Positions 4,463-60,096 of a DNA stretch of 64,000 bases are shown here, piece after piece. The stretch lies in assembly GCA_015295985.1 (NCBI GenBank), contig DVDX01000023.1, positions 1 through 64,000 of the forward strand, given 5' to 3'. Under the pieces are notes generated by a model that did not search any database, had not been told where the DNA came from, and worked only from the letters and a program-made list of their open reading frames with translations. This DNA comes from Synechococcus sp. M44_DOE_062. Its GTDB lineage: Bacteria > Cyanobacteriota > Cyanobacteriia > Thermostichales > Thermostichaceae. Each line of letters opens with the position of its first letter. The stretch's first letter is position 1. Position numbers and translations under genes: made by a program.

Positions 4463-4556
4463 GGCGACTAGAGTGAGGAGAGGATGGGATCCCTATCCTA
4501 TTCCCCCACCCATGCCTATTGCTCGCTAACCCTGTGGAAAAGCCGGATACTCAGTC

Positions 4557-4580
4557 TCGACAGCGTTGCGAAGCAGCAAA
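4557..4580. repeat. Short hairpin repeat abutting the mobA start codon
   Basis: GACAGCGTTGCGAAGCAGCAA (from 4559) is a variant of the 24-base element at 4837 and 5038. Its last A is the first base of the mobA ATG. The same arrangement is seen at 7777-7790. Confidence 0.7.
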
Positions 4581-5311
4581 TGCCTAAAGATTCTCTACCT
4601 ACCGTTGCGGCCTTGATCCTGGCCGGGGGCAACAGCCGCCGCATGGGATCCGACAAAGCCCTGGTGCTTTGGGAGGGGATCCCCCTGCTGCGACGGGTGG
4701 CTCAGGTGGCAGCAGCCTGTGCCGACGCGGTTTACATCCTCACCCCCTGGCCGGAGCGCTATGCGTCGCTGGTGGATCCCGGTTGGCACCTCTGGCGGGA
4801 AACCCTTCCCCTGCTTGCCGGGCAAGACTCATGGGGTCGCGACAGCGTTGCGGAGCAACACCGAGGCCCGTTGCTGGCCTTTCAAGAGGGGATCCGAAGG
4901 TTGCAAACCTTGGCCGCTCCCCCGGAGTGGATCCTGCTGCTGGCCTGTGATCTGCCCTGCTTGCAGGAGCAGGTTCTTGGGGATTGGCGACGACACCTTG
5001 CCGCCCTGCCCCCTCAGACAGTGGCTGCCCTGCCCAGTCGCGACAGCGTTGCGGAGCAACAAAGTCAGCGGCGCTGGGAACCTCTGTGTGGCTTCTATCG
5101 CTTGGCGCAGCTAGGCTCCCTGGAGAGTTTCTTGCAGGCAGGGGGAAGATCCTTTCAGGTCTGGTTGTCCCAGGTGCCCACAGCTATCCTACCCCTGCCC
5201 GTTTGCGACGGCGGGACGGAGTCCTTAGGGAGGATGCTCACCAATTGCAATACCCCTGCCGATCTGCAGCTTGGGGAAAGACTGGGCAGGGGTGATCCCC
5301 GGGATCGGTGA
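4580..5311 (+). CDS. mobA: Molybdenum cofactor guanylyltransferase MobA
   Basis: MobA transfers GMP from GTP to molybdopterin to form the bis-MGD type of Mo cofactor. The nucleotidyltransferase signature LILAGGNSRRMGSDKAL lies near the N-terminus, and LACDLPCL (the Asp-containing metal site) lies in the middle. With the ATG at 4580 the protein has 243 residues. An upstream ATG at 4484 would add 32 residues unlike the family. The coding sequence contains two exact copies of a 24-base repeat in the same frame (4837-4860, 5038-5061), each encoding RDSVAEQ. A third variant abuts the start codon, and a GGAC-GGA-GTCC hairpin lies near the end. These give peptide inserts not expected in MobA. Confidence 0.85.
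   Translation: MPKDSLPTVAALILAGGNSRRMGSDKALVLWEGIPLLRRVAQVAAACADAVYILTPWPERYASLVDPGWHLWRETLPLLAGQDSWGRDSVAEQHRGPLLAFQEGIRRLQTLAAPPEWILLLACDLPCLQEQVLGDWRRHLAALPPQTVAALPSRDSVAEQQSQRRWEPLCGFYRLAQLGSLESFLQAGGRSFQVWLSQVPTAILPLPVCDGGTESLGRMLTNCNTPADLQLGERLGRGDPRDR
4837..4860. repeat. In-frame short hairpin repeat in mobA, copy 1
   Basis: This 24-base sequence is identical to 5038-5061. Its 3' half is a hairpin with stem GTTGC/GCAAC and loop GGA. It is translated in mobA as RDSVAEQ. Confidence 0.85.
5038..5061. repeat. In-frame short hairpin repeat in mobA, copy 2
   Basis: Exact 24-base duplicate of 4837-4860, lying 201 bases (67 codons) downstream in the same reading frame, so both give the peptide RDSVAEQ. 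Stem GTTGC/GCAAC, loop GGA. Confidence 0.85.
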
Positions 5312-5374
5312 GGGGAAAGGATCCCCTCATGTCACAATGGGTAAAGATTTGCTCCGTTTCTTAATCTCCGCGCC

Positions 5375-7459
5375 GTGCTCACTTCCCTGTACTATCGCGA
5401 GATCCCTTGCCCTGATAGCGCCCAAGTGCTGCGCTGGCTACAGGAGTGCATCCCCCTGCCCCAGGGCAGTCGGAAGGTTCTCACCCCCACGGGCCTGCGC
5501 CTACAGGGATCCGGCGCTGAGCTGGCTCTCTTCTTGTGGTCGGGGCTGAACACCACCTATCTCAAGGTGTTTCAGTGGTCGGAGCAGCCTTTCCCTCGCC
5601 AAGCTCGCTGGCTGAGAGAGCTGGAACAGGCCATCCACAGCCAATTTCCCCACCGCTACCCGCAGTTGCCCCAGATCGATCTGAACCGGGGATCCATCTT
5701 CGATCAGCTTGAGCCTTTCTACCCGCAAACGGTGAAGTATTTTCGCCGGATCCCCAATGGAGAATTTGACCTGCAGCGGGTCTACTGGTGGGAAAAGCGC
5801 TGGCGGGAAGAAGTGCAACATCGCCATGCAGCCCACTGCTCCGCTCAGCCGGTATTGTTTCGCCAGCCTGCCCCTGAGCCGGCCCCGGTGGAGTGGGATC
5901 TGGCCATTGTGGGGGGAGCGCTGGGAGCCCTCTATGGGGCGGCCATGGCCCGCTTGGGCTACCGCGTGGCCTTGGTGGAGCGGCTTCCCTTTGGCCGCAT
6001 GAACCGCGAGTGGAACATCTCCCGGCGGGAGCTGCAAACCCTGGTGGATTTGGGCCTTCTGAGCGCCGAGCAGATGGAGAGCTTGATCCTGCGCGAATAT
6101 ACGGATGGGTTCAACAAGTTTTTTGACGGCAATAGCCCGGTGCGCGCCCCTGTCCTGCACACGCCCACGGTACTCAATCTGGCCATTGATGCCGAAAAAC
6201 TCCTGCAGCTTTGTGGCCAGATCCTCACTTCCTGTGGGGGGGCCATCTACGAGCGCACCGAGTTCCAGCGGGCCTACATTGGCGAACAAGGCGTCACGCT
6301 GGTTTTGAAGGATTTGTCCACCGGCGAGGAGTTTCGGCTGGGATCCCGCCTTGTGGTGGATGCCATGGGAACGGCCTCTCCCATTGCCCAGCAGCTTTAC
6401 CACCATCGAGCTTTTGATAGCGTCTGCCCCACGGTGGGGGCCACCATCCAAGGGGGGTTTGAGCCGGGGGTATGGGATCCCCAATTTGGGGACATTCTGG
6501 CCAGCCATGGAGACATCAGTCGCGGTCGGCAACTCATTTGGGAGCTGTTCCCCGGGCCAGGCGAAGATCTCACCTTCTACCTGTTCCACTACCACCAGGT
6601 GCATCCAGAAAACCCCGGATCCCTGCTGGAACTGTACGAAGATTTTTTCACCATTCTGCCGGAATACCGCCGCTGCGACCCGGAGCGCCTGCAGTGGAAA
6701 AAAGCGACCTTCGGCTATATTCCCGGACGATTTGACCAGCGCCGACATCCCGTTGGCAGCGGGGGGACGGAGTTTGACCGGGTGCTGCTCATTGGGGATG
6801 CGGCAGCCATGCAATCGCCCCTTAGTTTTACCGGGTTTGGATCCCTGGTGCGCAACTGCCCCCGCCTGTGCGATCTTCTGGATACAGCGCTGCGCCACGA
6901 CCTGCTCAGGACTGCGGACTTAGCTCAGATCCGAGCCTACCAGGGCAACTCCGCCGTCACCTGGCTCTTCTCGCGGGGGATGATGGTGCCCACCGGCAAG
7001 GTGCTGCCCCCCGAGCGCATCAATGCCACCCTCAACAGCTTTTTTGGCATTCTCGCCACCGAGCCGCCGGAGGTGGTGGACGATTTCATCAAAGACCGGG
7101 CCGGCTGGCTGGCGTTTAACCGCATGGCCATCAAAGCTGCCCTACAAAACCCACGGCTGCTGCTGTGGATCTGGGAGGCTGTAGGGGCCAAAGGCTTTGC
7201 CCAGTGGCTGCCCACCTACTTCAGCTATACCGGCCTGGTCTTGACTTCTGCTCTCTTGAGGGGCTGGCTTCCAAGGCTGCTGCGCCGCCTGCAGCCCTGG
7301 CTGGAAGCGCGTTATCCCCGCCTGTGGCTGCGCTGTCTGCAGTGGAGCTACACCCTTACCTATGGAGTGGGGCAGCCGCGCCTTCAGTTTCAACTCCCCC
7401 CCACTCAAGAAAAGGCCCAAGACGCAATACCAACTTGGATGGGATCCCTGCAGCAGTGA
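5375..7459 (+). CDS. cruA: CruA/CruP-type lycopene cyclase (FAD-dependent)
   Basis: The 694-residue protein has a Rossmann FAD site, AIVGGALGALYGAAMARLGY, at about residue 173. The motif FGRMNREWNIS that follows is characteristic of the CruA/CruP lycopene cyclases, which convert lycopene to gamma- or beta-carotene in cyanobacteria. GDAAAMQSPLSFTGFGS later in the protein fits the second FAD-contact region. A ~170-residue N-terminal extension and the overall length favour CruA over the shorter CruP, but I cannot separate the two with certainty. The start is a GTG at 5375. It lies 63 bases after mobA on the same strand. Confidence 0.75.
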   Translation: MLTSLYYREIPCPDSAQVLRWLQECIPLPQGSRKVLTPTGLRLQGSGAELALFLWSGLNTTYLKVFQWSEQPFPRQARWLRELEQAIHSQFPHRYPQLPQIDLNRGSIFDQLEPFYPQTVKYFRRIPNGEFDLQRVYWWEKRWREEVQHRHAAHCSAQPVLFRQPAPEPAPVEWDLAIVGGALGALYGAAMARLGYRVALVERLPFGRMNREWNISRRELQTLVDLGLLSAEQMESLILREYTDGFNKFFDGNSPVRAPVLHTPTVLNLAIDAEKLLQLCGQILTSCGGAIYERTEFQRAYIGEQGVTLVLKDLSTGEEFRLGSRLVVDAMGTASPIAQQLYHHRAFDSVCPTVGATIQGGFEPGVWDPQFGDILASHGDISRGRQLIWELFPGPGEDLTFYLFHYHQVHPENPGSLLELYEDFFTILPEYRRCDPERLQWKKATFGYIPGRFDQRRHPVGSGGTEFDRVLLIGDAAAMQSPLSFTGFGSLVRNCPRLCDLLDTALRHDLLRTADLAQIRAYQGNSAVTWLFSRGMMVPTGKVLPPERINATLNSFFGILATEPPEVVDDFIKDRAGWLAFNRMAIKAALQNPRLLLWIWEAVGAKGFAQWLPTYFSYTGLVLTSALLRGWLPRLLRRLQPWLEARYPRLWLRCLQWSYTLTYGVGQPRLQFQLPPTQEKAQDAIPTWMGSLQQ

Positions 7460-7789
7460 CATACTCCCGCACTCACGCTGATGCACAGAGGGGGGGCTCC
7501 CCGGCGGTCTAGCTAAATGCACCGGACACCAAGGCAATAGCGCTGTCGCCGTGATCCCTCAACAAGATCCCTATCTGCCGCTCGCGTCAGCAGGGCAGAG
7601 TTTTTTCCGGCTTGGCAGCTTGCCCAAGTTGGGTATAATCAATGCCTAATCAGAGATCGACAGCAGTTGGGAAGGGATCCCGACTTCAAGCTGGTCAGGG
7701 GACTGCTAAACCCCATTTTTCTAAAACCTTTGTTTTCGCAGGAAAACTCTGTAGGACTCAGCCCAGTCACATCAGTGTTGCGGAGCAAC
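7460..7789 (+). promoter_or_regulatory. 330-bp intergenic region with a sigma70-like promoter and a repeat
   Basis: The region contains TTGGCA (7612-7617), a 16-base spacer and TATAAT (7634-7639), a good housekeeping promoter for the gene starting at 7790. The leader of roughly 145 bases ends in the hairpin GTTGC-GGA-GCAAC (7777-7789), whose following A begins the start codon. I see no RNA gene or coding sequence in the rest. Confidence 0.6.
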
Positions 7790-9290: not shown

Positions 9291-9778
9291 CATGCTCCTT
9301 GCCCTTGGGCACCGTTTGCGGAAACAAGCCAAAACCTTGGCACTCAAAGCACATTTTTTAACTACCCTGCCGCTGAAATCTCGCTTTGCACTGCGCTTTA
9401 TGGTCGTTTCAGTTTAGGGTGAGACGACTGAGCTACTGGTCGCGCCAGCGGGACGGAGTCCTTGAAAAGCCTTCTGGCCTCGTGCATTCAATCATTCAAT
9501 GTTTAAGGCGTGGTTTGAGGCGTGGGTGCAGTGTCCTAGTTTGAATCGAAATGACCATACACCCCTATAGCCAGTTGCGCTACCGGTGCGGATGAGCTGG
9601 GGCCCTCACAGCACTTTTGGATCAAGAGTGGGTCTGCTGATCGAGATCACCCAGCCAAGGGGATCCCAATCATCCGGCCTGCAAGTTGGCATGGGCAAGA
9701 TGGGAGCTGCGCTCTCAGTCCTGCCTGTGAAAAATGGCCTGAGAAGCAACTGGGTTGGGCTTATGGAGGGATCTTCCC
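9291..9778. other. 488-bp intergenic region with dispersed repeats
   Basis: This region holds GTCGTTTCAGTTTAGGGTGAGA (9403-9424), which recurs inverted near 59971-59992. Immediately after it lies a composite repeat CTGGTCGCGCCAGCGGGACGGAGTCCTT (9436-9463) made of two hairpins, CTGG-TCGCG-CCAG and GGAC-GGA-GTCC. The remainder contains no convincing gene. Confidence 0.55.
9436..9463. repeat. Two adjacent short hairpin repeats
   Basis: CTGG-TCGCG-CCAG (9436-9448) is followed directly by GGAC-GGA-GTCC (9451-9461). Related copies of the first element occur at 2651, 42269 (inverted) and 46555-46586. Copies of the second occur at 5214 and, inverted, at 62496. Confidence 0.7.
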
Positions 9779-46646: not shown

Positions 46647-47834
46647 ATGAATTCTTCTCTCACCATCAACGACACCACCCTGCGCGATGGGGAGCAGGCG
46701 GCAGGGGTAGCCTTCCAAATCCCCGAGAAGATCTCCATTGCCGCCCTCTTGGATGCCATTGGCGTGCCCGAGATTGAAGTGGGGATCCCGGCCATGGGCG
46801 CCGTGGAAACGGAGGCCATCCGCGCCATGCTGGGCTTGGGGCTGCGGGCTCAGATGCTGGGGTGGAACCGGGCTGTGCCCAGCGATATCCTCGCCTCCAT
46901 CCGCTGTGGCCTCAAACGGATCCACATCTCCGTGCCGGTCTCGAATCGGCAAATCGCTGCCAAGTTCCAAGGGGATCGGCCTCGGCTGCTACGACAGTTG
47001 CGCCAATGCGTGGAGATGGCCTTAGAACAAGGGCTGTGGGTCTCGGTGGGGGCAGAAGATGCCAGCCGCACCCCTCTGGAGCAGGTTATTGAGCTGGCCC
47101 AAATGGCCCAGAGCTGGGGCTGTCGGCGCTTCCGCTACTGCGATACGGTGGGCATTTTGGATCCTTTTAGCACCTACAAGCAGATTCGCCGTCTGGTGCG
47201 GGCCATCGACATCCCCGTGGAGATGCATACCCACGACGACCTGGGTATGGCCACCGCCAATGCCCTAGCTGGGATCCGCGCCGGCGCCCAGTCGGTGAAC
47301 ACCACCGTCAACGGCTTGGGGGAACGGGCCGGCAACGCCCCCCTAGAAGAGGTGGTGATGGCTCTGCGCTACACCTTGGGGATTGACGTTGGGGTGGATA
47401 CCCGCCGCCTGCGGGAGCTGTCTCAACAGGTGGCGCGGGCCAGCGGCGCTCCCCTGCCCCCCTGGAAGGCCATTGTTGGCGATAACGCCTTTGCCCATGA
47501 GTCGGGCATTCACGCGGCAGGGGTGTTGCGGGATCCCCAGACCTACGAGCCTTTCCCACCGGAAGCCGTGGGCAGCCAGCGGCGGCTGGTGTTGGGCAAA
47601 CACTCCGGTAGGCGTTTGCTGCTCCAGGTTCTGAAGGAACAGGGGATCCCTGTCGAGCAGATCCCGCCTGGCCAACTGGAAAAGCTCCTAGAACAGGTGC
47701 GGCAGCACGTCACCCACTGCAAACATCCGATCCCACCGGCGGAACTGGCCCGCTATTGCCGCGCAACGCTGACGCAATGGGCACAACAGTCTCTAGAACC
47801 CATCCCAGAGGAGAGCCATCCCGATGTTGTCTAA
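46647..47834 (+). CDS. nifV: Homocitrate synthase NifV
   Basis: NifV condenses acetyl-CoA and 2-oxoglutarate to homocitrate, the organic ligand of FeMo-co. The 395-residue protein begins with INDTTLRDGEQAAGVAF and has the metal site HTHDDLGMATANALAG and GLGERAGNAPLEEVVMAL, diagnostic for the HMG-CoA-lyase-like superfamily. The ATG at 46647 lies 9 bases after GGAGG; the ATG at 46638 would be too close to it. Its end overlaps a 49-aa ORF. Confidence 0.93.
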   Translation: MNSSLTINDTTLRDGEQAAGVAFQIPEKISIAALLDAIGVPEIEVGIPAMGAVETEAIRAMLGLGLRAQMLGWNRAVPSDILASIRCGLKRIHISVPVSNRQIAAKFQGDRPRLLRQLRQCVEMALEQGLWVSVGAEDASRTPLEQVIELAQMAQSWGCRRFRYCDTVGILDPFSTYKQIRRLVRAIDIPVEMHTHDDLGMATANALAGIRAGAQSVNTTVNGLGERAGNAPLEEVVMALRYTLGIDVGVDTRRLRELSQQVARASGAPLPPWKAIVGDNAFAHESGIHAAGVLRDPQTYEPFPPEAVGSQRRLVLGKHSGRRLLLQVLKEQGIPVEQIPPGQLEKLLEQVRQHVTHCKHPIPPAELARYCRATLTQWAQQSLEPIPEESHPDVV

Positions 47835-59793: not shown

Positions 59794-60096
59794 TGGCTGA
59801 GGGAGAAGCCTGATTTTGGCGACCCAATCTCCTTTCAAACCAGGACACTGCGCCCACACCCAAAACGTCGGTCGCGTCGTCGCGTCAGCGTTGCGGTTCC
59901 CGTCAGGGTGCCGTAGGCATAGCAATAGCGTTGCGGAGCAATAAGGCCAAAGGCTTTTCTCAATGGCCCAGGCATCTCACCCTAACCTGAAACGACTATG
60001 ATGCCAATGTGGCGTCGTCATCTCTTTGTGTTCTATCCTGGGGAGCAATAAGATAAAGCACCGCAACAATATAGTCCTAAACTGGGAACCTTCCTG
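59794..60096. other. 303-bp intergenic region with composite repeats
   Basis: This gap contains a run of short elements from about 59877 to 59945: CGCGTCAGCG, a TGCC-GTA-GGCA hairpin (59909-59919) and GTTGC-GGA-GCAAT (59930-59942). After it, TCTCACCCTAACCTGAAACGAC (about 59974-59995) is an inverted copy of 9403-9424. No gene is visible. Confidence 0.6.
59885..59924. repeat. 40-base dispersed repeat, intergenic copy
   Basis: This 40-base block matches 63711-63750 inside hisZ in 36 of 40 positions, and resembles 2688-2721 inside the DUF512 gene. It contains the hairpin TGCC-GTA-GGCA. Confidence 0.8.

Follow-up and report, generated by a model that had tools for sequence, protein, structure and literature searches.

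Frame-keeping copies of a 24-nt small dispersed repeat, probably of the SDR5 type, in and beside mobA of Synechococcus sp. M44_DOE_062

Why does the molybdenum cofactor guanylyltransferase gene of Synechococcus sp. M44_DOE_062 contain identical short hairpin repeats in a single reading frame, and did these arise by insertion into a working gene? Within the window, i.e. the whole 64,000-nt stretch of DNA analysed, a sequence-only reading had reported two identical 24-nt copies encoding RDSVAEQ, which we recovered one nucleotide upstream of the 4837-4860 and 5038-5061 originally given, an A following both copies having shifted the register (Table 1). The two copies lie 201 nt (67 codons) apart, and a third unit, 366 nt from the first, shares their frame. 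Four elements had been assigned to mobA, of which three are indeed located inside the gene; the fourth, thought to touch the start codon, stops just short of it. A GGA loop had been described for each element, which holds for the unit at 5202 but not for the copy at 4554, where the loop is GAA. The segment at 5214-5224, formerly read as a second hairpin type, corresponds to the 3' portion of a complete 24-nt unit with the family leader and hairpin layout and a swapped stem, placing all of these elements in one superfamily. None of 100 shuffles of the window gave three matches to the GTCGCGACAGCGTTGCGGAGCAAC-type repeat.

Table 1. Coordinates of mobA and of the 24-nt family copies in the window.
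Feature	Position	Strand	Remarks
24-nt element GTCTCGACAGCGTTGCGAAGCAGC	4554-4577	+	ends 2 nt upstream of ATG 4580; 3-mismatch variant of GTCGCGACAGCGTTGCGGAGCAAC
mobA	4580-5311	+	molybdenum cofactor guanylyltransferase, 243 aa from ATG 4580
24-nt element GTCGCGACAGCGTTGCGGAGCAAC	4836-4859	+	in frame, RDSVAEQ; older insertion, common to G004
24-nt element GTCGCGACAGCGTTGCGGAGCAAC	5037-5060	+	in frame, RDSVAEQ; recent insertion
24-nt element TTTGCGACGGCGGGACGGAGTCCT	5202-5225	+	GGGAC-GGA-GTCCT stem, in frame (CDGGTESL), common to G004
family copy	7766-7789	+	inside called gene; 31-nt gap covers site in G001
family copy	47755-47778	-	antisense in called gene; G004 without gap at site
family copy	59919-59942	+	intergenic

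Comparison with five further genomes of the genus (G001-G005) indicated that mobA received at least four insertions, two common to the sister genome G004 and two newer. At the 5037 site, the DNA alignment reveals an empty site in G004 (CTGCCCA^AAAGTC) with exactly 24 nt missing and no target duplication, and the 4554 site is likewise empty in G004 by exactly 24 nt without duplication (TCCA^AAATGCC, a register worked out by hand from the G004 alignment). The 4836 copy is present in G004 at CACA^ACCG and absent from G002, G003 and G005; given that the G004 flanks minus the element match G003 in length, this copy represents an older insertion. When 109 homologues of MobA from cyanobacteria were aligned, practically all showed a clean gap of 8 residues opposite the second RDSVAEQ (residues 153-160). 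The segment encoded by the 5202 unit faces an 8-residue gap in G002, G003, G005 and nearly all others, being present in G004 and rare others, much as the sequence-only reading had anticipated for inserted segments. In G001 no MobA match was found, and synteny with the window (4466-5321) ends at mobA. Also observed was another 24-nt difference from G004 at 4809-4835 (+ strand), adjoining the 4836 copy, which comprises a CTTGC-CGG-GCAAG hairpin without the family leader.

The open reading frame matches NCBIfam NF002741 over its cut-off in a profile search (E = 7.9e-78), and its product also matches Pfam NTP_transf_3; a search of solved structures with MobA gave no match at the cut-off. Relatives encode a MobA of ~204 aa, versus 243 aa in the window. 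The invariant residues LAGG, DK, CDLP, WEPL and NCN are all intact, and dN/dS between the mobA genes of this genome (G000) and G004 is 0.23, with outgroup comparisons yielding the same value; judged by these substitution rates, mobA remains under purifying selection despite its insertions. Given the retained motifs and the dN/dS, together with the empty sites, we find support for the earlier proposal that a working gene took up frame-keeping insertions, and MobA is presumably still working. An AF2 model of the protein (mean pLDDT 86) predicts the inserts as low-confidence connections (block means 54, 71 and 72-80) separating well-predicted core elements.

The exact GTCGCGACAGCGTTGCGGAGCAAC 24-mer occurs only three times in its own genome, yet genome-wide counting identified many further members of the family, whose unit consists of a conserved leader, TCGCGNYAGC (DTCGCGNYAGC), followed by a 13-nt hairpin with a 5-bp stem and a 3-nt GGA or GTA loop. 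At least 111 sites match the 20-nt core at up to 3 mismatches, compared with none for the reversed pattern, and conservation among aligned copies spans position 2 to 24-25. When 136 sites were picked by the leader TCGCGNYAGC alone, with the hairpin not used in selection, 99 were followed by a perfect 5-bp/3-nt hairpin, against 26 (maximum 42) with re-dealt 3' arms and 0/8 in a Markov control. The stem occurs in at least five compensated versions, i.e. it covaries, with types including GTTGC/GCAAY, GGGAC/GTCCT, GGTGC/GCACT, GGGCC/GGCCT, GGCGC/GCGCY and GTCGC/GCGAY. Single copies fold no more strongly than shuffled sequences, and covariation was used as the evidence of structure instead. Because G-T pairs are common at the stem base, the hairpin is probably recognised on one strand. 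In the GTTGC and GGTGC types, pairing of the leader (positions 2-8) with the 5' stem arm (positions 12-18) around an AGC loop is an alternative to the GGA hairpin.

Pattern searches of the genus identified at least 146 copies in G000, a count drawn from ~539 kb selected partly for copy richness plus whole-genome pattern searches, as well as 109 in G004, 79 in G005, 22 in G001, 8 in G002 and 7 in G003. Exact GGA-loop copies numbered 249 in G004 (control 0), and tandem arrays of copies at 24-nt spacing were also found. Outside the genus the element is sparse, with near-exact copies in 31 of 386 phylum genomes, mostly at 1-13 copies and in one family of large genomes. No exact match to the element was found among viral contigs, and spread by phage was rejected on this ground. 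Further dispersed repeats, present many times over in G004 and G001, were noted in the window at 9397-9560 and 7456-7516.

Extending the comparison beyond mobA, we sought the joined flanks of 43 sites of this genome in G004 and G001; with mobA included, 39 have a G004 ortholog. An exact 24-nt absence without target duplication was found at 14 sites in G004 and at 2 more in G001, bearing out the prediction of presence or absence among close relatives at 16 sites in all, the mobA 5037 and 4554 copies included. Those in G004 comprise C67:51924, C58:26770, C84:19240, C12:15498, C71:40820, C12:7418, C84:21008, C67:54747 and C28:24716, along with the intergenic sites C58:36691, C58:30987 and C58:31915; those in G001 are C81:46850 and C12:98794. 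A similar number of sites is filled in both relatives, the remaining sites are complex, and a few orthologous sites differ by lengths other than 24 nt. Six insertions are polarised by an empty outgroup (mobA 5037, mobA 4554, C12:7418, C84:19240, C84:21008 and C58:36691), the outgroup flank carrying further small differences at some of them, and five stem types are represented among the mobile copies. These comparisons demonstrate precise, recurrent insertion of a 24-nt unit. Since intergenic empty sites also measure 24 nt, the length belongs to the unit and is not imposed by the reading frame; together with the 24-nt tandem spacing, they rule out frame selection as the cause of the size.

Examination of 135 copies with distinct left flanks revealed a preference for C at -3 (60%), C/T at -2 (91%), G/A at -1 (77%), A/T at +1 (82%) and +2 (73%), and G at +4 (56%), such that the preferred target resembles C-Y-R^A-W-N-G. 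As the same bases are seen at empty sites, they pre-exist the insertion. Several sites with an element ending in CT have T at +1, against A in the empty site; the last T may thus be part of the element, replacing a target base. Based on codon-usage gene calls, 169 structure-defined copies divide into 79 intergenic, 54 sense and 36 antisense, with sense copies distributed 30/14/10 over the three frames and the RDSVAEQ frame the commonest. The GTTGC-GGA type is free of stops in all six frames, and some other types (GTA loops, TAG in the leader) have stops in some frames, a pattern that fits selection filtering the copies once they are in place rather than insertion aimed at the frame.

The flanks also bear on identity. 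PMC4390886 places the SDR5 insertion point between nucleotides 3 and 4 of HIP1. Outside the genus, HIP1 is interrupted at five loci (L150, L245, L246, L247 and L272), which have the form GCG-[24 nt]-ATCGC, and further copies are embedded in a GTTGGGTT...AACCCAAC repeat. In one family of large-genome cyanobacteria (L148, L149 and L249-L264), the element often lies within a GTAGGTTGGGTT...GAAACCCAACA palindrome. Among the 169 copies of G000, none has a HIP1 context, and the 539 kb surveyed contain 739 copies of GGGATCCC, versus ~15 expected, and only 5 of HIP1 (GCGATCGC). Such a use of GGGATCCC in place of HIP1 agrees with what PMC4390886 reports for JA-3-3Ab and JA-2-3B. Given that the preferred target YG^AWNG overlaps GCG^ATCG, one specificity could explain both contexts. 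Membership in the SDR kind is well supported, and identity with SDR5, resting on the HIP1 insertion context, is probable; what we see is probably an SDR5-type element that has expanded, with its target relaxed to CYR^AWNG, in a genus poor in HIP1.

Taken together, the repeats very likely represent a 24-nt small dispersed repeat that is mobile but non-autonomous and that probably belongs to the SDR5 type of cyanobacteria. Copies insert precisely and in either orientation, within and between genes and without target duplication; as 24 nt equal 8 codons and the GTTGC-GGA stem type is stop-free in six frames, genic insertions add eight residues, and selection would retain those landing in tolerant loops. 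That RDSVAEQ might instead be a conserved or selected functional peptide repeated in MobA is hardly credible: it does occur twice in one protein, and its frame is the commonest among sense copies, but it is absent from homologues, the same DNA is found antisense, in other frames and between genes, and the peptides encoded by other stem types at similar sites bear no relation to it, the empty sites and intergenic copies refuting this reading altogether.

With regard to how the repeat moves, a trans-acting single-strand (HUH-like) cut-and-join step is our preferred guess, the most likely candidate but unproven and held tentatively, because the HUH class recognises hairpins and inserts beside a short 5' target without duplicating it. 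The four Y1_Tnp matches in G000 are all interrupted or fragmentary, with none intact, and Y1 transposase counts do not track copies (19 genes and few copies in G001, 2 genes and many copies in G004); this lack of correlation led us to reject an IS200/RAYT mover matched by copy number. An RNA-copy route, whereby the transcribed element, often carried in host mRNAs, folds and inserts by reverse splicing or reverse transcription, was reportedly suggested for SDR elements by Elhai et al. in 2008. The one-strand hairpin, whose stem base has G-T wobble pairs, the strong covariation, the genome-wide spread and the target without duplication would all suit such a route, but we regard it as unlikely: RVT_1, the reverse transcriptase domain that a non-autonomous retroelement would call for in its genome, had no match in the six genus genomes (G000-G005), where copies are most numerous, which rejects the reverse-transcriptase route by gene content, and genomes rich in reverse transcriptases outside the genus (G128, G135 and G353) hold few copies. 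Tandem 24-nt arrays, and stem arms that change together (T-A to G-C, with no wobble intermediate) as in hairpin-templated correction, might point to an enzyme-free route in which a nascent strand or short hairpin fragment primes or is ligated at a break, by template switching or as filler DNA. This appears quite unlikely, however, considering the constant exact length and ends at unrelated sites, the lack of flank carry-over and a target preference that would not be expected of filler DNA.

Returning to a mobile repeat moved in trans, we venture, rather tentatively, that an enzyme distinct from both reverse transcriptases and IS200-type Y1 transposases, with a preference for C-Y-R^A-W-N-G, actively moves this SDR5-type element; HIP1 (GCG^ATCGC) would then simply be the most frequent of these targets in other cyanobacteria. 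If so, the link between SDR5 and HIP1 would be explained as a target effect of this enzyme, and a HIP1 context shared outside the genus and absent here provides a test of that tie. A 24-nt, mostly stop-free unit would also supply proteins, time and again, with insertions of eight residues. At 24 nt, the element approaches the minimum size for mobile elements and is among the smallest mobile DNAs known. Because sister species differ by empty sites that are clean and keep the frame, its movement is directly testable, and these sites show how functional proteins can acquire eight-residue insertions recurrently.

Several known systems share features with this element. Rickettsia palindromic elements, with which the sequence-only reading had drawn a parallel, are likewise short repeats found in frame within working protein genes, and the in-frame placement is seen here; the parallel is nonetheless weak, and membership was rejected, as those elements measure about 100-150 bp (PMC10969869) versus 24 nt here, where copies are found in each of the three frames, on either strand and at many sites between genes. 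REP/REPIN sequences with RAYT are similarly hairpin repeats of ~20 nt moved without a gene of their own, but the present element starts with DTCGCG and has no GTAG/CGTC tag, is not extragenic, occurs as single units rather than doublets, and is accompanied by no intact Y1 gene in G000. The HIP1 octamer is another short cyanobacterial repeat and forms the context of the element outside the genus; unlike the element, it is a methylation-linked octamer rather than an inserted unit, and is replaced by GGGATCCC in this genome. Closest are the cyanobacterial SDRs, especially SDR5 (Elhai et al. 2008, as cited in PMC4390886, PMC3733652 and PMC3116915), which are alike in their size of ~20-27 nt, dispersal and precise insertion. 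The element has the features of the SDR4/5/6 type, i.e. a unit of ~21-27 nt, many dispersed copies and recent mobility, as well as the SDR hairpin, whose stem shows compensatory changes among families that differ in sequence; it differs from SDR5 in its hundreds of copies, its unicellular hot-spring genus, its relaxed, non-HIP1 target and its frequent location in coding sequence.
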